From the NCBI GenBank assembly GCA_943788755.1, contig CALSRM010000001.1, positions 186,001-250,000 of the forward strand: 64,000 bases of DNA, given 5' to 3'. Positions 3,525 through 50,003 of the stretch are shown here, in pieces; position 1 is the first letter of the stretch, and each line of letters opens with the position of its first letter. The notes under the pieces were generated by a model that was not told the origin of the DNA, searched no databases, and saw nothing but the letters and a program-made list of their open reading frames with translations. The stretch comes from an uncultured Flavobacteriales bacterium. GTDB lineage: Bacteria; Bacteroidota; Bacteroidia; Flavobacteriales_D; Parvicellaceae. The position numbers and the translations under genes were made by a program.

Positions 3525-3981
3525 TTATCAAGCATCAAACCTAGTGTCCACTAAACCATACCCAGTGTCATTGCGAAGGCGCAGCCAGCGGCAATCTCGC
3601 GTTGAGTGATCAGATTTCCGCACTTTGCTAAAACGCAAAGTCCGCTATGACGGCACGCTGAGGGATGACAATTGGGGAACGACACGTGCAGCGGTAATTG
3701 GGGCGACAACAAACAGAGCCATGGCGAATGGGACAAAAAGGAGGCACAACAGCTCAATCAACGATCATTACGTTGGGAAAATCAACATTAATCTCTAGCA
3801 ATGAATCAGAGGTTTTACTTGAATATAAAGTCCTTGTTTTTAATTGTTTGTAAGTCTCAGGGTTGTATATGTAAATTGACCTTCAGCTTCGTTGGGTAAG
3901 TCAATGTCTGCATTCGGAAATTGTCGTTTTTCCAGATTGAGATAAGGTTATATTTTTGCATCAGAACAAAAGTGAGGTGTT
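3525..3981. other. gene-free stretch with one palindromic repeat
   Basis: 457 bp without a convincing gene. Its left part (about 3560-3770) is clearly GC-richer than the surroundings and contains the inverted copy of the CATTGCGAA repeat. The right part is AT-rich leader sequence for the response regulator, with TATTTTTG at 3951-3958 as a candidate -7 promoter element. A 68-codon reading frame on the minus strand at 3551-3757 is a by-product of the repeat. Confidence 0.7.
3567..3651 (-). repeat. palindromic CATTGCGAA element, inverted relative to the 18.2 kb array
   Basis: The block begins GTCATTGCGAAGGCGCAGC and ends CGCTATGAC. Read on the minus strand it follows one unit of the 18.1-18.3 kb array block by block: the terminal CATTGCGAAGGCGCAGC, the inner GCGGCAATC and AGATT parts, and the hairpin ACTTTGC-TAAAAC-GCAAAGT type core at 3620-3640. 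It is higher in GC than the flanks. Structure and dispersed copies suggest a REP- or MITE-like element moved in trans. Confidence 0.75.
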
Positions 3982-4350
3982 ATGGGGAAATTATTGACAA
4001 TTGAGGATGATGTTTTGTTACGTGAAACGTTAACGGAAATATTAGAAGTTTATGGACATACTGTTGTTCAAGCAGAAGACGGAGAGGAAGGGATAGAGAT
4101 GTTCTCTGAATCATCTCCTGACTTAGTATTGTGCGATATTAATATGCCCAAAATGGACGGTTTCGAAGTGTTGAAAAAGCTAAAGGTTATTGTTGGAGAA
4201 GCTGATATGCCTCCGTTTATTTTCTTGTCAGCCAAAACTGAAAAGAAAAATATACAACATGCTTTAGATTTAGGTGCTGTAGATTTTGTTTCAAAGCCAT
4301 ATTCTGCACCGGAATTATTGAAGCTCATAGACTCAAGGTTGAATGTTTAA
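3982..4350 (+). CDS. single-domain response regulator (CheY-like receiver)
   Basis: A 122-residue receiver domain with no output domain. Acidic pocket Glu8-Asp9-Asp10, phospho-acceptor Asp52 (LCDINMPKMDG), Ser83 and Lys105 (FVSKPY) are all present, so phosphorylation should work. It is the only receiver in the window and lies just before six histidine kinases that lack receivers of their own. A role as shared phospho-acceptor or relay protein for those kinases is an inference from position. As a stand-alone receiver it must act through protein contacts. Confidence 0.93.
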   Translation: MGKLLTIEDDVLLRETLTEILEVYGHTVVQAEDGEEGIEMFSESSPDLVLCDINMPKMDGFEVLKKLKVIVGEADMPPFIFLSAKTEKKNIQHALDLGAVDFVSKPYSAPELLKLIDSRLNV

Positions 4351-4478
4351 ATTCGCTAGTGTATAACCAACAAAGGTTATCAAAATGATGGATAGCTTTA
4401 ATGGTTTAGTGCTAAAATCACTATAACCATTAAGAATATAAGAAATTTCTTTGCGAAGAGTCCAGGTTTCTTGGGATT

Positions 4479-4967
4479 ATGGTGAGCAATTATTGGGCTA
4501 ATATCTTAATAAAAATGATTATGAGTAGGGTGGATGATTTTTATAAATCTTTAAAAGAAGCTACTGAGCACCAAACTAGATGCTCTAAAGCTTGGTTAGT
4601 ATCAAATGATGTAATATTTGTAGAGTGCAAAGAGCGTGCTGAAATTGAGTTAGAAGATGCAAAAGAAGATATGCAACTTTCCGAAAAATTGGTAGCGGAG
4701 GTTAATTACTTTGCAACAATCATCAATACTGCTAATATTAAAAGTATCTCAAAAGAAGCGAGGGACTGGTATTCTCAATCCCAGAATGACAACCCGCGCA
4801 ATGTAAGCGTGGCATTAATCGTAAATTCATTTTATACCAGAATCATTGCTAATTTCTTTCTTGGATTTAAGAATTCAAGAACGGAAATGAAAATTTTTAA
4901 TGAAAAAGATGTCGCTATTGAATGGCTATATGAACAATTAGATTTTAATGCAAGCTTTGGTGGATAA
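4479..4967 (+). CDS. STAS/SpoIIAA-like domain protein (tentative)
   Basis: 162 residues without signal peptide or membrane helix. The pattern of N-terminal beta strands (DVIFVECKERAEIELEDAK), a central EARDWY segment and the C-terminal RIIANFFLGF ... TEMKIFNEKDVAIEWL matches a group of small Bacteroidota proteins with a STAS- or SpoIIAA-like fold that often sit beside kinases. Several starts are possible; Met15 at 4521 (MSRVDDFYKS) would remove an unusual hydrophobic leader. The stop overlaps the start of the PAS-domain gene by 20 bases, suggesting coupled translation. The domain call rests on pattern memory, not a search. Confidence 0.6.
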   Translation: MVSNYWANILIKMIMSRVDDFYKSLKEATEHQTRCSKAWLVSNDVIFVECKERAEIELEDAKEDMQLSEKLVAEVNYFATIINTANIKSISKEARDWYSQSQNDNPRNVSVALIVNSFYTRIIANFFLGFKNSRTEMKIFNEKDVAIEWLYEQLDFNASFGG

Positions 4968-6579
4968 TCGCTTTCATCAAATACAAGAGTTTTTAATTCA
5001 ATTGGCTTCTGGTAATTTCGATTACAACGTCAGTCCTTCAGGGTCACAAGATGAATTAGATGCTGTGATTTTGGGTATAAATATGCTGGGTGAGGAGCTC
5101 AAGTCCTCTCAAGAAAAGTATACTGCTCTTTTTGAACATGCAGGCGACGCGATTTTAATCTTTAGTGCTACTTCCAATAAGTTTGTTGATTCAAATAAAG
5201 CCGCCACAGAGTTGCTTGGCTTTTCTGCAGAAGATATTCGACTTCTAACTATAGTAGATCTATTTCCAAAAGAGGAAAAGGCGAGTATGGAAAGTGAAAT
5301 TACTGACTTAAAAAGTATTGGTCAAACACATTTTGATACGAAAATCGAAACCAAAGATGGAAAGTTGACGGATGTTTCTTTTTTAGCAAAGCTATTGCCT
5401 TATGGGAATGATGAATTTTTTCAGTTATCTCTTAGGGATATAACCGAGTCAAAAAAGGTTTCCAATAATTTCAATAAAAAAAATACAGAATTAGAGAAAG
5501 CTCAAAAAGAAATTAGTGAATTATCGAAATTTCCTTCAGAGAATCCAAATCCAATTTTAAGGTTTAATGAAAAATTTGAACTCGTTTATAAAAATGCGGC
5601 GAGTATTATAAATTTTCTATCAGATTTTAAGATCAAAGAAAACAAATTAAACGATCGCGTTTTACTAGGTTATTTCAAGAAAATTCAAGAAAATAGGAAT
5701 TCCGAAAGGATTATTCAGACTAGAAATAAAAGGCATTATTCGCTAACCTTGGTATATGTTGAAGAATTTAATTATATAAATATTTACGCTTCTGACATTA
5801 CCAATTTTATCAATCAAGTAAAAGAAAATGAAAAAAGCCTTATTGGTTTAAAGGATGAAATTCAAAGTCAAAAAGATTTTTATGAACGGATACTGAATAG
5901 TATACCTTCTGATGTTGCAGTATTTGATAAGAAACATCGATATCTATTTGTTAATCCGAATGGAATTCAAGATCCTGTAACTCGAAATTTTCTAATTGGG
6001 AAGGATGATTTTGATTATGTTAATTTTAAGGGGATTTCAGATGAAAAAGCAGTTGAACGCCGCAAGCTTTTCAATAGAATAATGAGAACTAAAACACCTG
6101 AAACCTGGTTAGACGAATTTACTCTTAAAAATGGGAGACGAAAAGTAGTGTTAAGAAGCTTTAATCCTATATTAGATGAGAAGGGTAAATTTCGTTTCGT
6201 AATAGGTTATGGAACCGATATTACTAAGCGTGTTATAGCTGAAGAGGAAAACACCAAATTGTCTTTCGTTGCCAAAAACACGAACAATGGTGTTCTCATG
6301 TTAAATAACAATAGAGAAATAACCTGGGCCAACGATGCTTTTTTAGAGCGCTCTGGTTATTCTTTGAGTGAGATAATTGGTAAAAATTCTACTTATTATT
6401 TGTTTGATAAAACGAGTGTTTCGTTTTATGAAAAAGTGAGTATAGCAATGGATAAGCAGAAAAAAATTTCTGTGGAGTTAGTGCGAAAATCCAAGAATGG
6501 TAATGAGTATTGGGTAGATTTAAACATTCAGCCTTTATTCGATAATGCTAAAAAGCTTATGGGGTTTCATGTTTGTTGA
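4948..6579 (+). CDS. multi-PAS sensor region of a histidine kinase (N-terminal part, frameshifted)
   Basis: 543 residues, cytosolic. A HAMP-like segment (about 8-52, ASGNFDYNV ... DELDAVILGINMLGEEL) is followed by four PAS-like domains at about 58-168, 195-285, 305-427 and 437-540. The frame then ends abruptly after KKLMGF. The reading frame one base ahead continues as MFVEFDITDR, the expected PAS exit sequence, and runs into the kinase of the next entry. Removing one G from the GGGG run at 6561-6564 joins both into one protein of about 840 residues. So this is the sensor part of a kinase split by one extra base. PAS ligands are not predictable. Confidence 0.85.
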   Translation: MQALVDNRFHQIQEFLIQLASGNFDYNVSPSGSQDELDAVILGINMLGEELKSSQEKYTALFEHAGDAILIFSATSNKFVDSNKAATELLGFSAEDIRLLTIVDLFPKEEKASMESEITDLKSIGQTHFDTKIETKDGKLTDVSFLAKLLPYGNDEFFQLSLRDITESKKVSNNFNKKNTELEKAQKEISELSKFPSENPNPILRFNEKFELVYKNAASIINFLSDFKIKENKLNDRVLLGYFKKIQENRNSERIIQTRNKRHYSLTLVYVEEFNYINIYASDITNFINQVKENEKSLIGLKDEIQSQKDFYERILNSIPSDVAVFDKKHRYLFVNPNGIQDPVTRNFLIGKDDFDYVNFKGISDEKAVERRKLFNRIMRTKTPETWLDEFTLKNGRRKVVLRSFNPILDEKGKFRFVIGYGTDITKRVIAEEENTKLSFVAKNTNNGVLMLNNNREITWANDAFLERSGYSLSEIIGKNSTYYLFDKTSVSFYEKVSIAMDKQKKISVELVRKSKNGNEYWVDLNIQPLFDNAKKLMGFHVC

Positions 6580-7474
6580 ATTTGACATTACAGATAGAAT
6601 AGTGAACAAGCAAACAATTGAGAATCTTAATGTAATCCTAGAAAATCGTGTTCAAGAAAAAACGAAGGAACTCAGAGCAAACGAACTAAAATTGGAAAAT
6701 TCGTTAAGCAAGGAAAAAGAGCGAACAATAGCATTGAGAAATAGTGAAAAGAAGTTAAAAAAGTCATTAATCAAAGAAAAAGAGTTAAGTAATTTAAAAG
6801 CTAGCTTTGTTACTGTTGCATCACATCAGTTTAGAACACCTTTAGCAGTCATTCAGTCAAATACGCATTTAATGGAAATGTTTAATAGTATGGAAAAAAA
6901 ACAAACGCCTGAAAAGTATGCGCAAGTATCTGCCCGCATCACATCGGCAATTTCCACAATGACGTCTCTAATGGATGATGTACTTACACTTGGTAAGCTC
7001 AATTCAGGAAAGGTAACTTATTCTCCTGCCTATTTGGATTTGGTTATGTTCTGTAAAACCTTGGCAGAGGAATATGATTCGGTTCAAGCAGATGGCAGAA
7101 GTATAAATGTCGCGATAAAAGGAAAAGCTTACGAGGTATATTTAGATGCAAAATTGCTTGAGCATACTTTGTCTAATTTGATCAGTAATGCTTTTAAATA
7201 TTCTGTAGGTAAAGATAATCCTGAGTTGATTATACACTTTAAAGCCAAAGAAGTGTCTTTATTAGTGAAAGATTACGGTATAGGTATTCCTAAAGAGCAA
7301 TCTTTGCATCTGTTTGATGCTTTTTTTCGTGCAGATAATGTTACAGAAATTCAAGGTACAGGATTGGGGTTGAACATTGCAAAAGAATATGTTGAAGTTA
7401 ATAAGGGTGCCATTTCCGCTAGATCAATACTTGGAGAAGGTAGCTGTTTTGAAATAATATTTAAAAAAAGATAA
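6545..7474 (+). CDS. histidine kinase core belonging to the upstream PAS region (C-terminal part, frameshifted)
   Basis: 309 codons. The first codons before MFVEFDITDR are an out-of-frame artefact; real homology starts there. A long coiled coil (about 20-85) leads to the HisKA dimerisation domain with His94 (ASHQFRTPL) and to the HATPase domain with N box (HTLSNLISNAFKYS), G1 (VKDYGIGIP) and G2 (GTGLGLNIAKEYVE). All ATP-binding motifs are intact. Unless ribosomes shift or re-start at the ATG at 6545, the kinase would not be made in fusion with its PAS sensors. First of six closely related kinase cores in a row. Confidence 0.85.
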   Translation: MLKSLWGFMFVEFDITDRIVNKQTIENLNVILENRVQEKTKELRANELKLENSLSKEKERTIALRNSEKKLKKSLIKEKELSNLKASFVTVASHQFRTPLAVIQSNTHLMEMFNSMEKKQTPEKYAQVSARITSAISTMTSLMDDVLTLGKLNSGKVTYSPAYLDLVMFCKTLAEEYDSVQADGRSINVAIKGKAYEVYLDAKLLEHTLSNLISNAFKYSVGKDNPELIIHFKAKEVSLLVKDYGIGIPKEQSLHLFDAFFRADNVTEIQGTGLGLNIAKEYVEVNKGAISARSILGEGSCFEIIFKKR

Positions 7475-7477
7475 ATT

Positions 7478-8014
7478 ATGAAAGGAATTGTATTTACAGA
7501 ATTTTTAGAGTTAGTTGAAAATGAATTTGGTTTGGACGTGGTTCAGCAGATAATTGATGAATGCGAACTTGATTCCGAAGGTGTTTATACCTCTGTTGGA
7601 ACCTACAGCCATAAAGACATGTTCAAAATGGTCGCAAAACTTTCCGAAATAAAAGGGCTTCCCGTTCCAGCTTTGTTAATGGTTTTTGGTGAATATTTTT
7701 TCACTACCCTAAAAACCAAATATCCTATGTTTATGGAAAAGCCAAATTTGTTTAGCTTTTTAAACTCAATAGACCAATATATTCACCCTGAAGTTTTAAA
7801 GCTTTATCCGGATGCTGAGTTACCTCGATTTGAAGCTGAAATGAAAGATGAAAATGAGATGGTGTTAAATTACTATTCATCAAGAAAAATGTCTGATTTA
7901 GCCATTGGGCTCATAAAAGGAGCTGCTGCACATTTTGAAGAGAATGTGGACGTCGTAAAAATAGGAGAAGAGGGTGATGGTGAAAAAGTTAGATTACAGG
8001 TCAATAAAATTTGA
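7478..8014 (+). CDS. H-NOX heme-based nitric oxide sensor
   Basis: 178 residues, the usual length of a free-standing H-NOX (heme NO-binding) protein. The proximal heme ligand His103 (YIHPEVLK), the conserved Pro116 and the heme-propionate motif YxSxR (Tyr132, Ser134, Arg136) are present. Five residues after that Arg, where oxygen-binding H-NOX proteins have Tyr, there is Leu141, so a nitric-oxide-selective pocket is expected. The gene is followed directly by a histidine kinase, the classical H-NOX/kinase arrangement in which ligand-bound H-NOX controls autophosphorylation. It starts three bases after the previous kinase ends. Confidence 0.93.
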   Translation: MKGIVFTEFLELVENEFGLDVVQQIIDECELDSEGVYTSVGTYSHKDMFKMVAKLSEIKGLPVPALLMVFGEYFFTTLKTKYPMFMEKPNLFSFLNSIDQYIHPEVLKLYPDAELPRFEAEMKDENEMVLNYYSSRKMSDLAIGLIKGAAAHFEENVDVVKIGEEGDGEKVRLQVNKI

Positions 8015-8021
8015 ATTTGTT

Positions 8022-8360
8022 ATGAACCCTGAATTAATCGAAAAAGCTCGTCAAAGAGAAGTTGCAGCGCGTAAAGCGGCAGAGCAACTGCTTGAGTCAA
8101 AAAGTATTGAATTATATAATTCAATGCAAAGCTTAGCTATTTCCAATAAAGAATTGGAAGAGTCGCTGCTGCGGGAAAAAGAGCTGGGACTCTTAAAGTC
8201 GAGTTTTATTACTGTGGCATCTCATCAGTTTAGAACTCCTCTCGCAGTTATTCAGTCTAATGCTGAGTTGCTCGAGATGCTAAACAATCAAGGAGTTAAA
8301 CAGGAGCCTGAAAAGTATGCAGTTGTAACTAACGGATTACAGAAGCAATCTCTAAAATGA
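8022..8360 (+). CDS. H-NOX-associated histidine kinase, N-terminal part (frameshifted)
   Basis: Begins eight bases after the H-NOX stop with MNPELIEKARQREVAARKAA; an upstream in-frame GTG/ATG at 7974/7977 overlapping H-NOX is the alternative. A coiled coil leads to the first HisKA helix with the phospho-acceptor His (ASHQFRTPL). The frame is lost after VVTN: the sequence AACGGATT reads as AAC CGG ATT in the paralogues, so one C is missing at 8333. After that the frame closes at 8360. The restored protein would be about 280 residues with no sensor of its own, in line with sensing through the partner H-NOX. Confidence 0.85.
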   Translation: MNPELIEKARQREVAARKAAEQLLESKSIELYNSMQSLAISNKELEESLLREKELGLLKSSFITVASHQFRTPLAVIQSNAELLEMLNNQGVKQEPEKYAVVTNGLQKQSLK

Positions 8361-8869
8361 CAGCCCTAATGGATGATGTGCTTACTTTGGGTAAACTAAC
8401 CTCAGGAAATGCTCCTTATTTCCCTGAAGATACAGATTTGATGGCGTTTGGTGATAGATTGGTAAATCAATTTAAATTGATAAAAAAAGATGATAGCGCA
8501 TTAAATTTTATTACCGATGGAGAACCTTACAAGGTTCATTTAGATCCAAAATTATTAGAGCACACACTATATAATTTAATTAATAATGCTTTTAAGTATT
8601 CGAAAGGAAAGAAGAACCCCGAGTTGAGCTTACTTTTTAAACCAACAGAAGTAGTTATATCTGTTAAAGATTTTGGTTTGGGTATTCCTGAAGATGAGCA
8701 ACAGCATTTATTTGAACCCTTTTTTCGGGCAAATAACGTGTCAGAAATTCAAGGTACAGGATTAGGCTTGAGCATTGCAAAAGAATATGTTGAAGTTAAT
8801 AAGGGACGTATTGCAGCTAAATCAAAATTAGGAGAAGGCAGCTGCTTTGAAATAACATTTAAGACGTGA
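8357..8869 (+). CDS. H-NOX-associated histidine kinase, C-terminal part (frameshifted)
   Basis: 170 codons carrying the second HisKA helix (MTALMDDVLTLGKL) and a complete HATPase domain with N box (HTLYNLINNAFKYS), G1 (VKDFGLGIP) and G2 (GTGLGLSIAKEYVE). The ATG at 8357 overlaps the TGA that ends the upstream part (ATGA), so re-initiation could in principle yield the two halves as separate chains. A simple one-base deletion is the more economical explanation, because the frame upstream of the ATG already encodes the expected ITEAISK sequence. Confidence 0.85.
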   Translation: MTALMDDVLTLGKLTSGNAPYFPEDTDLMAFGDRLVNQFKLIKKDDSALNFITDGEPYKVHLDPKLLEHTLYNLINNAFKYSKGKKNPELSLLFKPTEVVISVKDFGLGIPEDEQQHLFEPFFRANNVSEIQGTGLGLSIAKEYVEVNKGRIAAKSKLGEGSCFEITFKT

Positions 8870-8901
8870 TAAAAACTATTCTAACTAATTATAAAAAAAT
8901 T

Positions 8902-9939
8902 ATGAAATTTAATTATTTATTCCTTTTAACCCTTATTTATTCTTCCACAGGTCTATTGGCACAGGGTAATTTTAATGTTAAAGGTTTTGGTTCAATGGAG
9001 CATAATCTTGAATATCATCAGGATGTTGAAGAATTTGATTTAGCCTGGCAACTCGGAGAACAAAGTCTATTTGTTACGGGTGATATGGGTAACAAGTTTT
9101 CGTTCTTGGGAGAATTTTCTTTAGGTTACAGAGGAGGCGATATTCATGCTAATTTGCACAGAGCAAGAATAAAGTGCAATTATGTTGGTAACCATTCTCT
9201 TATGATAGGACAAATGCATACACCGGTTAATTACTGGAACGATGTTTACTATCATGCTCGGATTTTTTTTCCAACTACGGATAGACCCTTAGCATTTAGT
9301 TACTTCATTCCAGTGCACTCAATAGGTATTCGTGCTCAAGGTCAGAATTTGGGGAAATTGAATTTGGGGTATGATATTCAGACCACCAATTCTTTAACCG
9401 GAGATGGAAATAATCCTGCTGTTCTAGGTGCTTTTCATATAAAACCAGCAGATGGGATGAGAATAGGTGCCTCATATTATTATAGTTATATTGCTCAAAA
9501 CAATACAATGCAACATATGAATCACGGATCCGGTATGATGGGCTCTATGTATGCTGGTTCATTGGATTATCAATTAATCAATTTTTCTTTCGCTCGTTTT
9601 GAACAGAAACTAGAAATATTGAACGAATTTACCGCTGCTTTAAGTAGAACCGATTCGTTGGGTGCGGCTCAGAATTACAGTAATTACTTGTATGTTGGGT
9701 ACAATATTAAAGAGCTACATACTCCTTATCTTCTTTGCGATATCTTGAAGAGCTCAAATAACGATTTAAGGAATGGTGCAATTAATAAAGTTAAATTTGG
9801 GATAGGTTATAAATACCAATTTACTCCGTTATTAAATATGAAATGTCAATTAGAACGCTATACGGCCAATCCTGATTGGTCTAACCCAGCTGCTAATCAT
9901 TATGAATTTACAATCCAATTATCTTATGCAATATATTAA
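8902..9939 (+). CDS. outer-membrane beta-barrel (porin-like) protein
   Basis: 345 residues from the ATG at 8902, which begins a clear signal peptide (MKFNYLFLLTLIYSSTGLLA, cut before Q). The mature part shows alternating aromatic/polar strands typical of a small porin-like barrel and ends in a beta strand with a terminal aromatic residue (YAIY). A Met/His-rich loop (MQHMNHGSGMMGSM) lies near the middle. The end overlaps the start of the periplasmic binding-protein gene, and that gene overlaps the next kinase, so the three form a unit: outer-membrane barrel, periplasmic binding domain, membrane-bound kinase. Substrate unknown. Confidence 0.75.
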   Translation: MKFNYLFLLTLIYSSTGLLAQGNFNVKGFGSMEHNLEYHQDVEEFDLAWQLGEQSLFVTGDMGNKFSFLGEFSLGYRGGDIHANLHRARIKCNYVGNHSLMIGQMHTPVNYWNDVYYHARIFFPTTDRPLAFSYFIPVHSIGIRAQGQNLGKLNLGYDIQTTNSLTGDGNNPAVLGAFHIKPADGMRIGASYYYSYIAQNNTMQHMNHGSGMMGSMYAGSLDYQLINFSFARFEQKLEILNEFTAALSRTDSLGAAQNYSNYLYVGYNIKELHTPYLLCDILKSSNNDLRNGAINKVKFGIGYKYQFTPLLNMKCQLERYTANPDWSNPAANHYEFTIQLSYAIY

Positions 9940-10403
9940 ATCAAGTATTTCGGTTTTTGTTACAGTTGCATTTTTGTTGTTAATAAACAATAGCTGCTTT
10001 GCGACAAAATTATTCCTCAAGAATTAGAATTTGTGGAAATTCAATAGATGAAAAAAGTTATACCATAAGTGATATTAAATCTATATTAAAAGGAGAGAAG
10101 AGTCTTTGGAAAAATGGCAATAGGGTGATCATTGTAATGAGGTTTAATGAGGATGAAAAGTCACAATATTTGGCTAAAGAAATTTATAATAAATCCATAC
10201 AAGGAGTGAAAAAATTTTGGTTAGGACTTGTTTTTTCTGGTAGATCTAGTGCACCGTTATTTGCTGATAGTAATGAGGAGGCACTACTGATGCTAGCAAA
10301 GTATGAAGGCGCTATAGGCGTTTTTGTTGATTGTCAAGAAGAAATTCCAGCAGATTTTAAAGTTTCAATAATTAAGTCTGAAAATGAAAAGTCTATTAGA
10401 TAG
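9926..10403 (+). pseudogene. half-size phosphate-binding-type periplasmic protein (PstS/PBP-like), frameshifted after the signal peptide
   Basis: The ATG at 9926 opens a textbook signal peptide (MQYIKSSISV ... NNSCFA). The mature domain lies in another frame: dropping the A at 10004 gives CFA-QNYSSRIRICGN directly after the cleavage site. The mature part (about 130 residues) shows the half-size PBP pattern, ISDIKSILKGEKSLWKNG, FWLGLVFSGR and AKYEGAIGVF. Without correction the domain lacks an export signal and would start only from a TTG at 9999. The family is usually found next to a porin and a HAMP-type sensor, as here. Ligand is probably an anion, but this is not shown. Confidence 0.75.
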
Positions 10404-12366
10404 TTTCGCCTTTCGTCTTTGGGCCTTGTTTGCAATTTTGGGATTTTGTCTCTCAATTCCTTTGGGTTTTTATTACAATAATAAAAATTACCAACTATTG
10501 GAAAATCGAGCAAATATTGAATTAGATGTAATGGCACGTTCTGCCTCACTTGATATCAAAGCTGCTGTAAAATCAAATAATTTTCAAATCATAGAAGAAA
10601 CAATAAATCAAATTTCTAAAGACAATAATTATGCATTTATTGCGCTTTTGGAACGAGAAGACAATGGTTATAAATTATTTCGTTGCTTTCCAGATTCGAT
10701 GGGGTTTAACAAGCCTTATCATGATAGTACAACGTATTATTTGAAAAGCTCTGATTTTGAAACCGATATAATTAATGGGAAAATAATTCTAGGTACATCT
10801 AAAGAGGAAAGTAGAGAACAACTAAAATATCTTAACAGACCAATATGGCAATTAACCTATATAGCTAATTTTGCTTTACTGTTATTGTCTGCATTCTTTT
10901 TCATTCTCGTTACCAATCCTATAAGGAAAGCTAGTCGTTTTGCTTCTGAATTAAGTAAACGTAACTACAATGTGGAATTACGAGGATCAAATGGTAAAAA
11001 TGAAATTAGTGTTTTAAACAACTCTTTAATAACATTGAAACACAATTTAGTTAAGCAAAAAGAGACCAACGACGAACCGATTAATAAAGTTTCTGAACTC
11101 AATAAATATGCATTCATTGCTCTATTGGAAAAAGAAGAGGAAGGTTATAAGCTGTTTAAGTGCTTTCCGGATTCTATGGCTCGTGATAAATCTTATTTTG
11201 ATTCAACCACTTATTATCTGAAAAGCTACGATATTGATACAGATATAATTAAAGGTAAAATAATTCTAGGTACTTCTAAACAAGAAGTTATTAAAGATCT
11301 AAAATTTCTTAACGCACCAATATGGCAATTGACTTTTTTAGGGAATGTTGCATTACTTTTATTATCTGCATTCTTTTTTGTCCTAGTTACTAACCCGATA
11401 AGAAAAGCAAGTCGTTTTGCTTGTGAATTAAGTAAAACGAATTATACTGCAGAATTAAGAACATCAAGCGGTAAAAATGAAATAGGTATTTTGAACAATT
11501 CTTTAATTACATTAAAACATAATCTAATTGATCTTAAAGAAACGAATGATAACTTGGTAATAAGTTTACAATCGGAGATAGAGGGAAAAACGGAAGAAAT
11601 AAAGGTTAAGTCGCGATTGCAGAAGAAACTGCAAGAGAATGAATTGAAATTGAAAAATTCTTTGGTAAAAGAAAAAGAATTGGGTGTGCTTAAAACTAGT
11701 TTTGTTTCAATGGCATCTCATCAATTCAAAACGCCGTTAGCTGTTATTCAGGCTAATGCGGAATTATATGAAATGTTGGCGAACACGGGGGAAATAATAG
11801 AACCCAAAAAGTCTACAAAAGTAACGGGTCGTATTATAGAAGCAATAGGTACAATGTCTAATCTAATAGATGAAGTTCTGGCTTTAGGTAAAGTAACTTC
11901 GGGAAACGTTGCTTATACTCCTGAAAATTTAGATTTGGTAGGTTTTTGCGAGAAATTGGCAGAAGAATTTAATGCTATTCAAGCAGACGGAAGAAGTTTG
12001 GATTTTGTTAAAGAGGGTCATCCCATAAAGCTGCAGTTAGATCCAATCTTATTAACTCATTCGTTGTCTAATTTAATCAGTAATGCTTTTAAATATTCTG
12101 TCGGAAAAGAGAATCCTCAATTGAGGATACATTTTAAACCAAAAGAAGTTGTATTATCTGTAAAAGATTATGGTTTAGGTATTCCCGAAGAAGAACATTT
12201 AAAGCTATTTACGCCTTTCTTTCGAGCGAACAATGTAACAGATATTAAAGGCTCTGGATTAGGCTTAAACATCGCAAAAGAATACGTTGAAGTTAACAAG
12301 GGACAAATTTCAGTTAAATCCAAATTGGGAGAGGGGAGCTGTTTTGAAATAACGTTTAAGCGCTAA
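10384..12366 (+). CDS. membrane histidine kinase with a tandemly duplicated sensor-TM-HAMP segment
   Basis: 660 residues. TM1 at about 11-30, then a segment of sensor end, membrane helix (158-178) and HAMP, which is repeated: residues 82-230 and 241-389 match at a constant offset of 159 residues with no gaps, including IWQLT, ALLLLSAFFF, VTNPIRKASRFA and NNSLITLKHNL. Coiled coil 390-435, HisKA with His446 (ASHQFKTPL), complete HATPase. The frame is intact. Three predicted membrane helices with an inward N-terminus would place the kinase outside, so one hydrophobic segment probably does not cross, or topology is otherwise unusual. Its start overlaps the periplasmic-protein gene, its likely sensory partner. 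Confidence 0.88.
   Translation: MKSLLDSFAFRLWALFAILGFCLSIPLGFYYNNKNYQLLENRANIELDVMARSASLDIKAAVKSNNFQIIEETINQISKDNNYAFIALLEREDNGYKLFRCFPDSMGFNKPYHDSTTYYLKSSDFETDIINGKIILGTSKEESREQLKYLNRPIWQLTYIANFALLLLSAFFFILVTNPIRKASRFASELSKRNYNVELRGSNGKNEISVLNNSLITLKHNLVKQKETNDEPINKVSELNKYAFIALLEKEEEGYKLFKCFPDSMARDKSYFDSTTYYLKSYDIDTDIIKGKIILGTSKQEVIKDLKFLNAPIWQLTFLGNVALLLLSAFFFVLVTNPIRKASRFACELSKTNYTAELRTSSGKNEIGILNNSLITLKHNLIDLKETNDNLVISLQSEIEGKTEEIKVKSRLQKKLQENELKLKNSLVKEKELGVLKTSFVSMASHQFKTPLAVIQANAELYEMLANTGEIIEPKKSTKVTGRIIEAIGTMSNLIDEVLALGKVTSGNVAYTPENLDLVGFCEKLAEEFNAIQADGRSLDFVKEGHPIKLQLDPILLTHSLSNLISNAFKYSVGKENPQLRIHFKPKEVVLSVKDYGLGIPEEEHLKLFTPFFRANNVTDIKGSGLGLNIAKEYVEVNKGQISVKSKLGEGSCFEITFKR
10627..11073 (+). 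repeat. internal repeat copy 1 (sensor-TM-HAMP coding segment)
   Basis: 447 bp encoding residues 82-230 of the kinase. It recurs 477 bp downstream without insertions or deletions. Codon positions have diverged, so the duplication is not recent. Confidence 0.85.
11104..11550 (+). repeat. internal repeat copy 2 (sensor-TM-HAMP coding segment)
   Basis: Second copy of the 447 bp segment at 10627-11073, encoding residues 241-389. Both copies keep intact hydrophobic helix and HAMP sequences, implying selection on protein level after duplication. Confidence 0.85.
11863..12299 (+). repeat. kinase-core tract shared with 14162-14598
   Basis: Encodes the end of HisKA and most of the HATPase domain. 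From 11897 to about 12290 only about three mismatches to 14196-14589 are seen by eye, at a constant offset of 2299 bp. Similarity to the other four kinases of the array is much lower at DNA level. Confidence 0.88.
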
Positions 12367-12493
12367 CTATAAATGCAATTATCAGCTAATAATAGAAGTA
12401 TAGTTAATATAACTGACCTAATGGGATTAATACACTAAGAAGAGCATGCCTAAACGAGCGACATTTTTCTTCAAGAAAATCAATAATAATATA

Positions 12494-14665
12494 ATGAAAC
12501 AGATAATCTACATTTTATTTCTTCTAAACTCTTTTAGTGGCATTGCTCAAGGGTTTAATTTAGAGGAGAGAAAAAAAATTGACAGCTTATTAACTATTTG
12601 GAATAGTAAAGAACTTAATGACACTGCAAGAACTGACGCCTATCAAAGTTATATTGTAAATCATTTTTTATATAATAACCCGGATTCAGCTTTTATTTTA
12701 GCCCAAGAATACTATGAATTTGCTCAACAGAAAAAGTTAACATATAGAATGTCAACGGCATTGCTTTTGCAAGGAATTTCAAAATCTTTTGTAAATAACT
12801 ATGAAGAAGCGCTTCATTACTACTCTAGGTGCCTGGAATTTCGAATTACCTCAGGAAATCAAGAGGGAATTGCTTCAGTGCTAAACAATATGGGTTTAGT
12901 TTATTTCGAACAAGGCGATCATTCAAATGCTTTAAAGTACTATCTAAAGAGTCTAAAAATTGAAGAAAATCTTAAAAATGAAAAAGGAATAGCTAACTCC
13001 TTGAATAATATAGGGCTGATTTATAAAGAGGAGGGAGACTATAATACAGCCCTTGAAAACTACAATAGAAGTTTGAAAATTCAAATTAAACTCGAGAACC
13101 AAATGGGAGAATCCCATGCTCTAGTTAATATTGGAGTTGTTTACTTGAATCAAGGTAACTATGAAGATGCACTTAGTAGTTTTGAACAAGCACTAATCGT
13201 TAATGACGGCTATGAAGAGAATCTCAATGCTAAAATAAATTATAACATTGGTAGTATTCAATTCGACTTAGGGCATTATGATACTGCTTTAGGTTATATA
13301 AATAAAGCTTTAAAGACTCAAGTGAAATTAAATAATCGCCGGAACGAATCAAATTCACTAAATTTAATTGCTCAGATTAATTTTAAACAAAATTTAACAC
13401 TAAAAGCAATTTCTTTTGCACGAAGGGCATTAAAAATTGCTCAAGAAATTGGTGCAAAAGAGGAAATTCAAGATGCTGCAAAAGGTTTGTCTAAATATTA
13501 CAAAGCTGCTAATAGGACATCGGAAGCACTCGATATGTTGATCCTTTTTATGGAAACGAAAGATGAAATACAAAGTGAAAACATAAGTAACGAGATAATT
13601 AAACAAAGCTTGAAATATAAATATGATAAAAAAGCGACTAAGGACAGTCTGGAAAATGCCTACCTAATAGAAATTAGCCAAGACAAAATCAATACCCAAC
13701 GCGCAAAGAAAGAGCTAGCGGAACAAAAAAATTTCTATTTGTATGGCGGTTTATTCTTGACTTTAATCTTTGGAATATTCACTTATAACCGATTTAAGCT
13801 AACTGCCAATCAAAAATCACTCATCGAAATTCAAAAACATACTGTTGACAAAGCGAATAAAAAATTGAATCAAATAAATGAAGAATTATTAGTAAAAAGG
13901 AATGAAATAGATTCGCAAAAAAAAATAGTTCAGCTTCAGAATGAAAAATTGAAAAGGTCATTAGATACTGAGAAGGAACTAGGGTTGCTTAAAACTAGCT
14001 TTGTTTCAATGGCATCGCATCAATTCAAAACCCCTTTAGCGGTTATTCAAACTAATGCCGAATTATATGGAATGTTGGCTAGCACAGGAAAAATAATAGA
14101 GCCCGAAAAATTTGAAAAAATAACAGGCCGTATTAAAGGAGCAATTATGACAATGACTAATCTAATAGATGAAGTTCTAGTTTTGGGTAAAGCAACTTCG
14201 GGAAACGTTGCTTATACTCCTGAAAATTTAGATTTGGTAGGTTTTTGTGAGAAATTGGCAGACGAATTTAATGCTATTCAAGCAGACGGAAGAAGTTTGG
14301 ATTTTGTTAAAGAGGGTCATCCCATAAAGCTGCAGTTAGATCCAATCTTATTAACTCATTCGTTATCTAATTTAATCAGTAATGCTTTTAAATATTCTGT
14401 CGGAAAAGAGAATCCTCAATTGAGGATACATTTTAAACCAAAAGAAGTTGTATTATCTGTAAAAGATTATGGTTTAGGTATTCCCGAAGAAGAACATTTA
14501 AAGCTATTTACGCCTTTCTTTCGAGCGAACAATGTAACAGATATTAAAGGCTCTGGATTAGGCTTAAACATCGCAAAAGAATACGTTGAAATTAATAAGG
14601 GTACTATTTCTGTTAAATCAATAGAGGGAGAAGGTAGTTGCTTTAAAATAAAGTTTGATCGATGA
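12494..14665 (+). CDS. TPR-repeat histidine kinase
   Basis: 723 residues from the ATG at 12494, which starts a signal peptide (MKQIIYILFLLNSFSGIAQ); a further upstream ATG at 12446 gives a polar extension and is less likely. The periplasmic part holds at least six TPR units (for example ALHYYSRCLE, ALKYYLKSLKI, ALENYNRSLKI, ALSSFEQAL, ALGYINKALK). One membrane helix follows (YLYGGLFLTLIFGIFTY), then a coiled coil, HisKA (ASHQFKTPL) and HATPase with intact N, G1 and G2 boxes. This is the common Bacteroidota TPR-kinase layout; the TPRs probably bind a periplasmic protein or peptide. The catalytic end is nearly identical to that of the preceding kinase. Confidence 0.92.
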   Translation: MKQIIYILFLLNSFSGIAQGFNLEERKKIDSLLTIWNSKELNDTARTDAYQSYIVNHFLYNNPDSAFILAQEYYEFAQQKKLTYRMSTALLLQGISKSFVNNYEEALHYYSRCLEFRITSGNQEGIASVLNNMGLVYFEQGDHSNALKYYLKSLKIEENLKNEKGIANSLNNIGLIYKEEGDYNTALENYNRSLKIQIKLENQMGESHALVNIGVVYLNQGNYEDALSSFEQALIVNDGYEENLNAKINYNIGSIQFDLGHYDTALGYINKALKTQVKLNNRRNESNSLNLIAQINFKQNLTLKAISFARRALKIAQEIGAKEEIQDAAKGLSKYYKAANRTSEALDMLILFMETKDEIQSENISNEIIKQSLKYKYDKKATKDSLENAYLIEISQDKINTQRAKKELAEQKNFYLYGGLFLTLIFGIFTYNRFKLTANQKSLIEIQKHTVDKANKKLNQINEELLVKRNEIDSQKKIVQLQNEKLKRSLDTEKELGLLKTSFVSMASHQFKTPLAVIQTNAELYGMLASTGKIIEPEKFEKITGRIKGAIMTMTNLIDEVLVLGKATSGNVAYTPENLDLVGFCEKLADEFNAIQADGRSLDFVKEGHPIKLQLDPILLTHSLSNLISNAFKYSVGKENPQLRIHFKPKEVVLSVKDYGLGIPEEEHLKLFTPFFRANNVTDIKGSGLGLNIAKEYVEINKGTISVKSIEGEGSCFKIKFDR
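14162..14598 (+). repeat. kinase-core tract shared with 11863-12299
   Basis: Second copy of the near-identical tract. Flanking kinase sequence on both sides is clearly more diverged, so the match has sharp edges, as expected for gene conversion. Confidence 0.88.
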
Positions 14666-14699
14666 AGGTTGTGTATGCAGGCAAAAAAATAATTAGTAA

Positions 14700-16541
14700 A
14701 TGAATAAGGTAAGAACAAATAAACTAAAAAGGTTTATAGAAATTGGCTGTATTCCTTCAGACACTCCAGAAGAGCGTTTAAAGAAGTCGATTATGACCAT
14801 TATGGTTATCCCCTATTCTTTGGCAGCTGTTATTTGGGGGTTATACTTCATGCGAAATGGGTTTACGATAGCAGGAACCATCCCATTAGCTTATGCCGTT
14901 GTTTCATTAACGAGCTTTTTTTATTTTATTGCTTCAAAACGATACAATATATTCCGCTTCTTTCAAGTATTTCTTGTTCTTATTTTGCCTTTTTGTTTAC
15001 AGTTAGCACTTGGAGGATTTAGCCAATCCAGTGGAATGCTCTTGTGGAGTTGCACTGCTCCATTTATAGCGCTTGTTTTTTATGATGTAAAAACCGCTAG
15101 AAAGTGGGTTTATGCTTTATTTTTTCTACTCGTTTTAGCCTGTTTACTTGATGAATCAGCACGAATTTACTTTCCCGAAGAAATAGATGAAAATGCTATT
15201 GTACTAGTTTATGGAGCAAATTTTATTTTGATATCGATTCTTCTTTTTGGTATTCAAACATACTTTGTGAATGGACAGAGAAAAATTAAAATACAATTAG
15301 AAGAAAAAGAAGAGTTATTGGAGGCGTCAAGAGAAATTGACCGGCAAAAAGAGTTATTAATTGCCACCAAAGATAGATTGGAACTTGTAATGGGGTCATT
15401 AGAAGAAGTTGTTTGGGGACGTAGCTTGCCTGATCAACAAATGGAGTACGTAAGTGATTCAGTAGAAGGTTTATACGGTACTCCTAAGGTTGATTGGTTT
15501 AAAAAAACTAACCTTTGGATGGATATGATTCACCCAGATGATAAAGGAAAAGTTCTGAAAGGTAGTGAAGCTATTTTTAGTAAAGGTTTTGCGGAATTAG
15601 AGTATAGGATAGTAACTACAGATCAAAAAATAAAATGGATTAACAGTAAAACGCGAATTATTAAAAATCAGGATGGCACACCATTTTTCATGACGGGAAT
15701 AGCTGCCGATATAACTGAAAAGAAAACTGCACAAGAACAATTGAATGAATTGAACGATAGTCTTGAAGAAAAAGTAAACAAACGAACTGCAGAGTTAATA
15801 AATAGTGAAAAGAAGTTAAAAGAATCATTGCTTAAAGAAAAGGAACTGGGTCAATTAAAGTCAAGTTTTGTTACCGTTGCATCACATCAATTTAGAACAC
15901 CCTTAGCGGTAATTCAATCTAATACTGAGTTACTTGCGATGTTGACTAATACGGGCAATAATTCCGACCCCGTAAAATATAGAAAAGTAACCGATCGCAT
16001 TACTGTGGCAATTTCCAAAATGACTGATCTGATGGATGATGTGCTGACTCTTGGTAAGCTAACAGCTGGAAAGGTTTCGTGTAACCCGAAAGAAATAGAT
16101 TTAATTGATTTTTGTAGAAAAATGGTGGAAGAATTTAATGCGGTTCAACAGGATGGAAGAAATATTGACTTTGTTTATAGTGGAGACATATATCAGCCAT
16201 CTTTAGACTCTAAACTATTAGAACATTCATTGTCTAATTTAATTAATAATGCTTTTAAATATTCTGTTGGAAATGAGCAACCTGAGCTGAGCATAAATTT
16301 TAAACCAACAGAATTGGTTATATCGATAAAAGATTACGGGGTAGGTATTCCTGAAAATGAACGAAAACATTTGTTTGAACCCTTCTTCCGTGCAGAGAAT
16401 GTTTCAGAAATTCAAGGCACAGGATTAGGTTTGAGTATCGCAAAAGAATACATTGAGGTTAATAAGGGCAATATTGTGGTTAAATCTACATTGGAAAAAG
16501 GGAGTAATTTTGAAATAACTTTTGCAAAAGAAAGGATTTAA
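14700..16541 (+). CDS. six-helix membrane PAS histidine kinase
   Basis: 613 residues. Six hydrophobic helices at about 32-51, 57-78, 85-104, 111-128, 134-151 and 166-190 form an integral-membrane sensor region. After a short coiled coil a PAS domain (about 222-345, ending FFMTGIAADITEKK) follows, then a coiled coil, HisKA (ASHQFRTPL) and HATPase with N box (HSLSNLINNAFKYS), G1 (KDYGVGIP) and G2 (GTGLGLSIAKEYIE). Frame and motifs are intact. It begins 34 bases after the TPR kinase. The signal is unknown. Confidence 0.92.
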   Translation: MNKVRTNKLKRFIEIGCIPSDTPEERLKKSIMTIMVIPYSLAAVIWGLYFMRNGFTIAGTIPLAYAVVSLTSFFYFIASKRYNIFRFFQVFLVLILPFCLQLALGGFSQSSGMLLWSCTAPFIALVFYDVKTARKWVYALFFLLVLACLLDESARIYFPEEIDENAIVLVYGANFILISILLFGIQTYFVNGQRKIKIQLEEKEELLEASREIDRQKELLIATKDRLELVMGSLEEVVWGRSLPDQQMEYVSDSVEGLYGTPKVDWFKKTNLWMDMIHPDDKGKVLKGSEAIFSKGFAELEYRIVTTDQKIKWINSKTRIIKNQDGTPFFMTGIAADITEKKTAQEQLNELNDSLEEKVNKRTAELINSEKKLKESLLKEKELGQLKSSFVTVASHQFRTPLAVIQSNTELLAMLTNTGNNSDPVKYRKVTDRITVAISKMTDLMDDVLTLGKLTAGKVSCNPKEIDLIDFCRKMVEEFNAVQQDGRNIDFVYSGDIYQPSLDSKLLEHSLSNLINNAFKYSVGNEQPELSINFKPTELVISIKDYGVGIPENERKHLFEPFFRAENVSEIQGTGLGLSIAKEYIEVNKGNIVVKSTLEKGSNFEITFAKERI

Positions 16542-16704
16542 AAATATACTTGATAAGAAAAGATTGATCTTGAAATATTCAATAAAACCAATTAGTTTTA
16601 CAGGAATATTGATAATATTGCTAATTGTAAAGCTTTTGTTTTTAAAACATCTGAAATTCTTTAAGCATTCAGATTAGTTGAATAAACAATTACCTAGTAT
16701 TTGT

Positions 16705-17232
16705 ATGTCAGACCGTAGTATCCAAATTCAGCACGAGCAAACTGTCTCTGATCGTTTTTCAAAGTCGATGACTATAGCTTGTTTGGCCGGTAGTTGTGTT
16801 CATCTTTTCTTGAGTATCTTTTATATTATCCTAGGAGTGCCTGAAATGGTTGTTTTTGCCACGTTAACAGTTGTTTTGTTTTTATTTTGGCGGCAATTAT
16901 TCAAAAATAAATTTATTGAACTACCTTTTGTTCTGGCGAGTTTAAATGCCATAATCGGAATAATTTTGGGAGAATACTTTATTGGTTGGGAAAGCAACTT
17001 TAATATTTATTTCATTATTCTGGTGTCTTCTCTCTTTCTTTATACTGGCTGGAAGTTTTGGAAAAAAACACTTTATTTGATTTCAGTTTTTAGTCTGTAT
17101 TTGCTGTTGTACTTTTTATTATCAAATCATCACCCAAAATACACTATCAACAGTGAAGTTTTAAGTTATCTATCTCTTGTAAATACTCTATCAGCGTGTA
17201 CTTATACTTCTATTAATTCTGCTTTCATTTAG
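16705..17232 (+). CDS. membrane sensor region of a histidine kinase (N-terminal part, frameshifted)
   Basis: From the ATG at 16705 (MSDRSIQIQHEQTVSDRF); a TTG at 16678 would extend it. A short cytosolic leader is followed by about five hydrophobic helices. The frame closes inside what should be the last helix. The frame one base ahead, open from about 17184, reads VLILLLILLSFSSSIIKMQEKLENKN, that is the missing end of the helix and the start of the kinase coiled coil. One extra base near 17190-17200 explains the break. Repaired, the protein would have about 440 residues. Confidence 0.8.
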   Translation: MSDRSIQIQHEQTVSDRFSKSMTIACLAGSCVHLFLSIFYIILGVPEMVVFATLTVVLFLFWRQLFKNKFIELPFVLASLNAIIGIILGEYFIGWESNFNIYFIILVSSLFLYTGWKFWKKTLYLISVFSLYLLLYFLLSNHHPKYTINSEVLSYLSLVNTLSACTYTSINSAFI

Positions 17233-17248
17233 CTCTTCGATAATAAAA

Positions 17249-18025
17249 ATGCAAGAGAAATTGGAAAATAAGAATAGGGATTTAAATAGAAAAGCAAAGG
17301 AATTAGACGTTAGCTTGAACAAAGAAAAAGAGCTAGGACAGCTAAAAACTAGCTTTGTTTCAACTGCCTCACACCAATTTAGAACACCGTTGTCAATTAT
17401 ACAATCCAATACGGAGTTACTTGAAATGTTTGTCACTTCCCAAAAAATCGAAGATTTGGAAGGTCTCAAAAAAATAACTGGCCGGATTCAAATAGCAATT
17501 TCTACAATGACCGATTTAATGGACGATGTGCTTAAACTAGGCGTACTTACTTCTGGAAATGTTCCCTATAGACCTTTGAACCTGGATTTAGTAGTTTTTT
17601 GTGAGCGATTGACTAATGACTTTAATTTGATACAAAAAGATGGTAGAACCATAGATATATTTATAACGGGCGAGCCTTATAAAGTAATGTTAGATCCTAA
17701 ATTATTGAGCCACACATTAAATAATTTGATCAACAATGCTTTTAAATATTCTATTAGCAAGGATAATCCTCAGCTTAGGTTGCAATTTGAAGAAACAAAG
17801 GTGATCATTTCTATTATAGATTATGGGGTTGGTATTCCTGAAGAGGAACAAGCGCATCTATTTGAACCTTTTTTCCGTGCTAATAACGTCACAGATATTA
17901 AGGGGACCGGTCTGGGATTGAGTATCGCAAAGGAATATGTAAATATTAATAAGGGCAATATTATTGCGAAATCGAAAACTGGAGCAGGCAGCTGTTTTGA
18001 AATAACGTTTAAGCGGAAAGTGTAG
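17249..18025 (+). CDS. histidine kinase core belonging to the upstream membrane region (C-terminal part, frameshifted)
   Basis: 258 codons with a coiled coil (MQEKLENKNRDLNRKAKEL), HisKA (ASHQFRTPLSIIQSN) and a complete HATPase with N box (HTLNNLINNAFKYS), G1 (IDYGVGIP) and G2 (GTGLGLSIAKEYVN). The in-frame sequence before this ATG continues upstream as a hydrophobic helix, so the ATG is only the first Met after the frameshift. Translated alone it would be a soluble kinase without sensor. Last kinase of the array. Confidence 0.83.
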   Translation: MQEKLENKNRDLNRKAKELDVSLNKEKELGQLKTSFVSTASHQFRTPLSIIQSNTELLEMFVTSQKIEDLEGLKKITGRIQIAISTMTDLMDDVLKLGVLTSGNVPYRPLNLDLVVFCERLTNDFNLIQKDGRTIDIFITGEPYKVMLDPKLLSHTLNNLINNAFKYSISKDNPQLRLQFEETKVIISIIDYGVGIPEEEQAHLFEPFFRANNVTDIKGTGLGLSIAKEYVNINKGNIIAKSKTGAGSCFEITFKRKV

Positions 18026-18100
18026 TAGATTTAGTAGCTAAAAGTAGAATAAGACAAATCCCCCCACATATAGTCCATTTCACATCGTTCCCTTACTTAT

Positions 18101-18340
18101 CGTGATTGCTCACTTTGCTTTTTAGCAAAGTGCGGCAATCTCCTCAATCCAACGCGGGATTGCCGCAGGCTGCGCCTTCGCAATGGTGCCCCCGCGTGTC
18201 GTCATTGCGAACTTTGCGTTTTAGCAAAGTGTGGCAATCTCCTCAATCCAACGTGGGATTGCCGCAAGCTGCGCCTTCGCAATGGTGCCCCCGCGTGTCG
18301 TCATTGCGAACTTTGCGTTTTAGCAAACTGCGGCAATCTC
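18101..18340 (+). repeat. tandem array of a 99 bp palindromic CATTGCGAA element (2.4 units)
   Basis: Two full units and a partial one with a period of 99 bp, marked by TTTAGCAAA at 18121, 18220 and 18319. A unit starts GTCATTGCGAA and carries TTCGCAATG near the other end (terminal inverted repeats), with two inner palindromes: ACTTTGC/GCAAAGT and GGCAATC/GATTGCC. GC content is well above the flanks. The last, partial unit stops 16 bp before the 3' end of the GIY-YIG gene. Related copies lie at 3567-3651 and, diverged, at 57-150. Confidence 0.88.
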
Positions 18341-18356
18341 ATGAAAGATGTTCGCT

Positions 18357-18650
18357 TTACAACTGACTAGATAAATCATCCCAGTTAGGGTTTGATGTTT
18401 CAACTAGAATTATTTTATTCTTTCTAGATCCTGATTTTATTCTTTTTTCTTCAGCAATAGCCTCTAAGATAGAATGAAAACCTTTGTAATAAACTAGTTT
18501 GTTAACGCTGTATCTACTCGTAAAAGCTATGTGGTAATTTTTAAATTTATGCTGGTACATTCTAACGGGGAGATTACTCGTCACTCCTGTATAAAGTACG
18601 TTATTGTTTTTGTTGGTGAGTATATATACGGCTCCGCCTTTTGTCATCAT
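18357..18650 (-). CDS. GIY-YIG nuclease domain protein
   Basis: 97 residues consisting of one GIY-YIG domain of the short UPF0213/YhbQ-like type. The first strand pair VYIL and LYTGV correspond to the GIY and YIG elements. The catalytic Arg (LPVRMYQHK) and the acidic residue in the helix (EAIAEEKRIKSG) are visible. It begins MMTKGG; the second Met is equally possible. The gene ends directly next to the array of palindromic repeats. Such small nucleases are common in Bacteroidota and of uncertain role; DNA cleavage linked to repeat spread or repair is conceivable but not shown. Confidence 0.88.
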   Translation of the reverse strand: MMTKGGAVYILTNKNNNVLYTGVTSNLPVRMYQHKFKNYHIAFTSRYSVNKLVYYKGFHSILEAIAEEKRIKSGSRKNKIILVETSNPNWDDLSSQL

Positions 18651-18705
18651 AATTTGATGTTTTGTTTTGAGGTAATAATAGATTGGGGCTTATTAAGCCT
18701 TTTTT

Positions 18706-24058: not shown

Positions 24059-24463
24059 ATGGCATTCGAACTAGATATGATGGAAAAAACACCTCAAATA
24101 CTATTTGATTTGAATGAAGGTTATTTTTCATTTACTGGGGTGCTAATGCCAGAAGATGCCTTCGGTTTTTTTGATCCGCTGTTTGGATACATTAAAGTAT
24201 ATTTCAAAAATCCTAAGCCAGAAACAAAATTAGAAGTAAGTCTCGAATACTTTAACACGTCTTCATCTCGGTTTCTTTATCAGTTTATGAGAGAATTTGC
24301 TGATAATAAGTCAAACAAAACAAATATTACAATTATTTGGAAGTATGAAATAGACGATGAAGATATGGAAGAAGTAGGTAAAGCTTTTAAATTACTTTTT
24401 GATCAAATAACATTTGAAATGGTGACAGTTGAACGTCCAAGAGTATTTGAAATTATGGGTTAA
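24059..24463 (+). CDS. SiaC-like regulatory phosphoprotein (DUF1987)
   Basis: 134 residues of the DUF1987 family. Characteristic blocks are GYFSFTGVLMPEDAFGFFDP, the phosphorylatable loop EYFNTSSSRFL (Thr67 region) and WKYEIDDEDMEEVGKAF. In Pseudomonas the homologue SiaC is phosphorylated and controls a diguanylate cyclase. No SiaB-type kinase or PP2C phosphatase gene is adjacent here, so its partners are unknown. It overlaps the convergent Maf gene by four bases. Met7 or Met8 are alternative starts. Confidence 0.85.
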   Translation: MAFELDMMEKTPQILFDLNEGYFSFTGVLMPEDAFGFFDPLFGYIKVYFKNPKPETKLEVSLEYFNTSSSRFLYQFMREFADNKSNKTNITIIWKYEIDDEDMEEVGKAFKLLFDQITFEMVTVERPRVFEIMG

Positions 24464-47875: not shown

Positions 47876-48286
47876 ATGTATAGTTTTAAAACTAAAGTCA
47901 GGGTTCGATATGCTGAAACCGATAAAATGGGGTTTTGTTACTACGGGAATTATGCGACCTATTTTGAAATTGCAAGGGTAGAAGCTTTAAGAAATCTCGG
48001 AGTAAGCTATAAAGTTTTAGAAGATGAAGGAACATTCCTTCCTGTATCTGAATTTAATGTTAAATACCTTAAACCAGCATACTATGATGATGAGCTTACA
48101 ATTCATGTTTTTATTAAGGAGATGCCAGGTGTAAAAATAAAATTTACCTACGAAACTTATAATGATAAAGATGAAAAGCTTAATTTTGGAGATACTGTTC
48201 TCGTTTTTATTGATGGAGAATCAAAATCTCCGAAAAGACCACCTGAAAAATTAATTAAAGAATTAAATAAATATATTAGATTATGA
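47876..48286 (+). CDS. acyl-CoA thioesterase, YbgC/FadM hot-dog family
   Basis: 136 residues from the ATG at 47876 (MYSFKTKVRVRYAETDKMGF); a longer frame from 47834 adds a non-homologous leader. The catalytic pattern YAETDKMGFCYYGNYATYFE (Asp followed by the Y/N region) is that of 4-hydroxybenzoyl-CoA thioesterase-like hot-dog enzymes. It hydrolyses short or aromatic acyl-CoAs. It overlaps the next gene by four bases. Confidence 0.93.
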   Translation: MYSFKTKVRVRYAETDKMGFCYYGNYATYFEIARVEALRNLGVSYKVLEDEGTFLPVSEFNVKYLKPAYYDDELTIHVFIKEMPGVKIKFTYETYNDKDEKLNFGDTVLVFIDGESKSPKRPPEKLIKELNKYIRL

Positions 48287-49965: not shown

Positions 49966-50000
49966 TCATAGTTCCTGATACAATAGTTCCTGATGAAACT
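49924..50000 (+). repeat. 15 bp-type minisatellite at the PD40-OmpA junction
   Basis: Units sharing GTTnCTGAT: GTAGCAGTTACTGAT twice in a row, then shortened units spaced 11 and 12 bp, then two GTTCCTGAT units spaced 15 bp. They encode VAVTD and IVPD linkers. The shortened units together cause the frame change. Confidence 0.8.
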
Positions 50001-50003
50001 CTA

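Follow-up and report, generated by a model that had tools for sequence, protein, structure and literature searches.

An array of sister histidine kinases with different sensors in a Parvicellaceae genome: recent insertion, recombination between cores and candidate shared outputs

Organization of the kinase array

The stretch of DNA analysed here (the window, 64,000 nucleotides) corresponds to positions 186001-250000 of contig C1 in the genome under study (G000; assembly 3.17 Mb). Pfam scans of the window identify six HisKA plus HATPase_c cores between 4948 and 18025, all in the same direction and 58-90% identical in pairwise comparison. For reference we used three congeners (G001, G002 and G003, of which G002 is the sister species) and a related genus represented by G036, G037 and G038. 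The array genes are as follows.

3982-4350, + strand: stand-alone, CheY-like receiver (PF00072, 4.6e-29, 101 bits), with conserved counterparts in the island copies of G001 and G002
4479-4967, + strand: DUF7793/SpoIIAA-like protein (PF25056, 7.3e-20; the SpoIIAA-like match, at 0.0011, is under that model's cut-off)
4948-7474, + strand: HK1, PAS-repeat kinase (PAS, HisKA, HATPase_c), frameshifted (ORFs 4948-6579 and 6545-7474)
7478-8014, + strand: H-NOX haem protein (PF07700, 2.9e-48), its His and YxSxR aligning with PDB 6bde
7974-8869, + strand: HK2, soluble kinase adjoining H-NOX, frameshifted (ORFs 7974-8360 and 8357-8869)
8866-9939, + strand: porin-like protein; in the related genus too its gene adjoins those for the PBP-like protein and an HK3-like kinase (273-275 bits)
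9903-10403, + strand: PBP-like secreted protein with a frameshift in the signal-peptide region; G002 encodes an unbroken 166-aa form, and the related genus has a homologue
10384-12366, + strand: HK3, membrane sensor kinase (HAMP, HisKA, HATPase_c)
12446-14665, + strand: HK4, TPR kinase (Pfam scan), its core sharing a conversion tract with HK3
14700-16541, + strand: HK5, kinase with membrane helices and PAS (Pfam scan), its core DNA 100% identical to that of G002:C18
16678-18025, + strand: HK6, membrane-helix kinase, frameshifted (ORFs 16678-17232 and 17249-18025)

This arrangement agrees with an earlier note on the same DNA, which had described six cores in one direction, a different input for each (PAS repeats, an H-NOX partner, a duplicated membrane sensor, TPR, six helices plus PAS, and multiple helices), and one stand-alone receiver and one STAS-like protein nearby, the latter being the DUF7793/SpoIIAA-like protein. 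HisKA with its phospho-acceptor histidine and HATPase_c are joined in one frame, above cut-off, in HK3, HK4, HK5 and the cores of HK1 and HK6, while for HK2 the two domains share a frame only in relatives, the frame being broken in G000. Genome-wide there are 14 HisKA matches and about 15 HisKA-type kinases; the density of six of these within 14 kb was reached in none of 200,000 random placements.

The proteins that accompany the kinases are less readily classified. The porin-like protein has no Pfam match, and the PBP-like protein has neither a Pfam match nor a convincing match in the PDB, its PstS/PBP-like label (ORF at 9999) having been assigned by eye only. The structure model of the DUF7793 protein (pLDDT 38) was of no use, and that of the HK3 sensor (pLDDT 69) gave only a weak Cache/WalK-type match.

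Phylogeny of the kinase cores

All six island cores fall into a single clade (support 100/99) that is well separated from the genome's remaining kinases, which score at most 130 bits, as against 350-415 bits for the clade cores. This placement supports the proposal that one core had been amplified and joined to different sensors. The clade is not restricted to the island, however, and the expectation that the cores would group together holds in that wider form only: it also contains two off-island kinases of G000 (C1:14811 and C1:567268, the latter nested with HK3 and HK4), G002:C21 and two kinases of the related genus. Exclusive monophyly of the island cores is rejected by the two off-island kinases and the two from the related genus. 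Outgroup kinases came from an alignment scan of named genomes for the LytTR response regulator, which was keyed on receiver motifs, returned mostly unrelated regulators and was used for that purpose only. The kinase at C1:14811 (G000:C1:14808-16625; L048 2809-4626) is a TPR kinase beside mgsA; in G001 and G002 this site carries a copy of the island.

Frameshifts and insertion of the array

Comparison with relatives revealed that, of the six kinase genes, just HK3, HK4 and HK5 are intact, which the earlier note had overlooked. HK1, HK2, HK6 and the PBP-like gene each carry a single-base frameshift: one extra base near 6560-6570 in HK1, one missing base near 8331, inside the HisKA domain, in HK2, and one extra base near 17195 in HK6 and near 10004 in the PBP-like gene. 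The three kinases are intact in G002:C18, at 837, 297 and 455 aa, respectively. In HK1 and HK6 the break falls between sensor and core and leaves a core ORF intact with a start codon. Broken genes make up 4 of 10 in the island, compared with 1 of the 38 flanking genes compared (Fisher p 0.005). The HK2 lesion recurs identically in G002:C23 and is absent from G002:C18; it is therefore inherited, so that sequencing error does not account for every frameshift, and for the three lesions private to G000 (HK1, HK6 and the PBP-like gene) a sequencing or assembly error is unlikely. Because the HK2 lesion falls within HisKA, the H-NOX branch has probably lost its function in G000: the H-NOX protein retains the proximal histidine and YxSxR of an H-NOX/HnoK module, and an intact adjacent kinase is absent.

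The whole array lies on an insertion specific to G000. In G001, G002 and G003 the site is empty, with homology stopping at 3525 and resuming at 18700-18703 and only 31-33 bp in between. The insertion and the features near its ends are as follows.

3526-18699, + strand: 15.2-kb insertion carrying the whole array
3569-3652, - strand: left-end copy of a 91-bp repeat, inverted relative to the right-hand copies (left/right inverted match 86%)
18100-18340, + strand: right end, three tandem copies of the 91-bp repeat, one of them partial, found by a repeat search of the genome
18357-18650, - strand: GIY-YIG nuclease gene inside the insertion (PF01541, 3.6e-15)

The 91-bp repeat matches at five places in the genome: four belong to the island ends, and the fifth lies about 4 kb past the LytTR/PP2C genes described below (G000:C3:1622984). 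Neither an ORF for an integrase in 3526-18699 nor a target-site duplication at the junctions was seen, the two features taken here to mark an integrative mobile element. The GIY-YIG gene has no match in G001-G003; a 45% copy lies on contig C2 of G000.

Several island genes are 99.6-100% identical in DNA to G002, whereas the flanks are 79-92% identical. The DUF7793 gene is instead nearer to G001:C65 (95.6%, versus 81% to G002), and this split in affinity indicates that the island is a mosaic. The array in G000 is a recently inserted, mosaic copy that is detached from the LytTR/PP2C genes.

These observations bear on whether the island in G000 is a decaying, largely non-functional copy acquired horizontally, a reading that is compatible with a shared output in the relatives and that we regard as nearly, though not quite, an even call. 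Decay is suggested by the presence of four frameshifts, one of them inherited, among roughly ten genes, by the empty site in three congeners and by the distance of the output genes from the array. Against it, HK3, HK4, HK5, the receiver, the H-NOX gene and the porin-like gene are all intact, HK1 and HK6 retain startable core ORFs, and the three private frameshifts could still be errors of assembly.

Recombination among the cores

A conversion tract is visible between HK3 and HK4, the DNA of whose cores is 98-100% identical over about 300 bp and 35-52% identical just upstream of the core. In G002:C18 the 3' end of the HK3 gene consists of HK4 sequence, and HK4 itself is absent, a combination that we read as the trace of a core-core crossover that deleted HK4. 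The HK3 sensor itself is tandemly duplicated in G000 (a 428-bp internal repeat, 77%) and single in G002 (501 aa).

Comparison with the related genus extends this picture. The HK3 sensor and the neighbouring porin-like and PBP-like genes all match those of the syntenic kinase there, the sensor at only 24-25% identity, yet grouping the HK3 cores with the cores of that kinase is rejected (AU p 5e-5). Therefore, either sensors and cores have recombined within genera or cores have been homogenized within them. The version of the AU test that uses the PAS kinases is weak evidence, because the PAS sensors are not clearly orthologous. Recent homogenization is evident for HK3 and HK4 only; the HK1, HK2, HK5 and HK6 cores are only 58-65% identical to each other.

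Candidate output genes in relatives

G002 has two island copies, and G001 has two that are partial or whole. In G002:C18 and G001:C205 the array runs straight into a LytTR response regulator gene followed by a receiver-PP2C (SpoIIE) gene; the G001:C205 copy is without DUF7793. In the related genus (G036:C30 and G037:C146; in parts in G038) the order is H-NOX, PAS kinase, further kinases, porin-like, PBP-like, HK3-like kinase, LytTR regulator and receiver-PP2C. The receiver is the first array gene in G000, G001 and G002, and an AraC-type regulator takes its place in the related genus. In G000 the LytTR/PP2C pair lies on another contig (C3:1616963), behind glycosyltransferase genes; a fragment just upstream of the LytTR regulator (L045 13552-13716, - strand) resembles the C-terminal end of an IS110-type transposase.

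Across the family, one and the same set of 7 genomes out of 39 has kinase cores with 198 bits or more and LytTR regulators with 178 bits or more, a coincidence with a probability of 6.5e-8 if the genomes were independent, which related genomes are not. Receiver domains number only 19 in G000, and several of these adjoin other kinases; its CheY-like, LytTR-linked and PP2C-linked receivers form no supported clade in the receiver tree.

The residues expected to govern partner choice (positions +7, +8, +11, +12, +14 and +15 from the phospho-histidine) are alike in the kinases compared. Eight kinases differ from one another at a mean of 1.4 of the 6 positions, and from family kinases paired with another regulator at 3 or more (3-4). 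For Bacillus KinA-E the corresponding mean is 1.3 of 6 (residues from PMC6136694).

The PP2C domain of the receiver-PP2C protein resembles SiaA (E 2.4e-45), at 155 bits against an equivalog cut-off of 700. A SiaC-family regulatory phosphoprotein is encoded at 24059-24460 of the window (PF09345, 2.6e-31), outside the insertion and in the same place in G002; it is a possible target of the phosphatase. Elsewhere in the window, a TPR/OmpA-type gene at 48283-50399 is split over two frames when compared with G002, where two paralogues stand in tandem.

Discussion

We consider it probable, with some reserve, that the array is a multikinase input hub in which exchangeable sensors feed a shared LytTR, PP2C and CheY-like output. 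Inputs would come through PAS repeats, nitric oxide sensing by H-NOX, an extracytoplasmic sensor with porin-like and PBP-like partners, TPR and membrane helices. The sister kinases would most likely phosphorylate a small set of receivers, namely the CheY-like protein at 3982, the LytTR DNA-binding regulator and the receiver-PP2C protein (SpoIIE/SiaA-like), and the phosphatase would in turn dephosphorylate a SpoIIAA-like or SiaC-like partner protein, in a partner switch. Near-identical core DNA would allow adjacent kinases to recombine, so that sensors are swapped, deleted or duplicated and output specificity stays. Of the shared output that the earlier note had envisaged, the general idea gains indirect support from the like specificity residues, the one conserved neighbour pair and the co-occurrence; the lone CheY-like protein as its single endpoint does not, since the arrays of G001, G002 and the genus of G036 and G037 end in the LytTR regulator and receiver-PP2C genes, and the single receiver is a local trait of G000. 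Several observations speak against a hub: the unclustered receivers, the divergence of four of the cores, the G001 copy that lacks DUF7793, the low identity of the HK3 sensor to its counterpart in the related genus and, in G000, the remoteness of the outputs and the breakage of half the kinases.

A stronger proposal, which we put forward tentatively and think on balance doubtful, is a self-maintaining system of sensor cassettes, in which neighbours recombine through near-identical cores, sensors are exchanged, lost or duplicated, gene conversion keeps specificity toward one LytTR/PP2C output uniform, and the whole array spreads between species.

An unlikely alternative to the shared-output hub is an ordinary, lineage-specific expansion by duplication, in which each kinase was retargeted to a receiver of its own and the clustering is a residue of recent duplication. 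Members that are single or scattered (C1:14811, C1:567268 and copies in G036-G038), the divergence of cores other than HK3 and HK4 and the lack of a common receiver clade would fit such a history; the specificity residues, however, remain alike, the order of array and LytTR/PP2C genes is kept across two genera, and there are only 19 receiver domains in the genome, several of which lie next to other kinases. Quite improbable is that the stand-alone receiver is the only output, like Spo0F in the Spo0 phosphorelay, for although it leads the array in G000, G001 and G002 and the Spo0 kinases do converge on a single-domain receiver (PMC6136694), an AraC-type regulator sits there in the related genus, the constant neighbours are the LytTR regulator and receiver-PP2C genes, and no Spo0B-like relay protein was noticed among the nearby genes.

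A standing question in two-component signalling is how new sensors become connected to an old output while crosstalk is avoided. The array illustrates a way in which bacteria may gain and exchange inputs to a single pathway, and it offers natural alleles of recombination inside kinase cores, of sensor deletion and duplication and of whole-array movement between species. Because the candidate outputs are known from relatives, concrete cores and receivers are at hand for tests of many-to-few phosphotransfer.

A literature search, mostly of papers outside subscription, returned no description of such an array; multikinase networks as a class are known, and what is new is the recombining, travelling array. 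The Spo0 system of Bacillus (KinA-E, Spo0F, Spo0B and Spo0A) likewise combines several kinases that have different sensors and like specificity residues, and a single-domain receiver is among the candidate targets here as well, but Spo0 kinases are scattered orphans rather than one array, and the candidate outputs here are a LytTR regulator and a receiver-PP2C protein. Nitric oxide modules of the H-NOX/HnoK type in Shewanella and Vibrio similarly have an H-NOX gene that overlaps a soluble kinase gene, and the Shewanella pathway, as summarized in a later paper, is shared by several regulators (Plate and Marletta 2012, cited in PMC8738867); the H-NOX kinase here differs in being one of six sisters, broken in G000 and without an adjacent c-di-GMP enzyme gene. 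SiaABCD is a partner switch of Pseudomonas aeruginosa (PMC7647112), to which the SiaA-like PP2C domain and the SiaC-family protein of G000 bear a likeness, whereas the phosphatase here has a receiver input and scores far under the SiaA equivalog cut-off, and SiaC lies outside the insertion. Finally, lineage-specific kinase expansions with domain shuffling likewise produce paralogues whose cores carry new input domains. In myxobacteria, a survey judged direct shuffling to be rare and detected no significant relocation among two-component genes (PMC4603909); the present array, by contrast, bears traces both of recombination between adjacent cores and of its own relocation.
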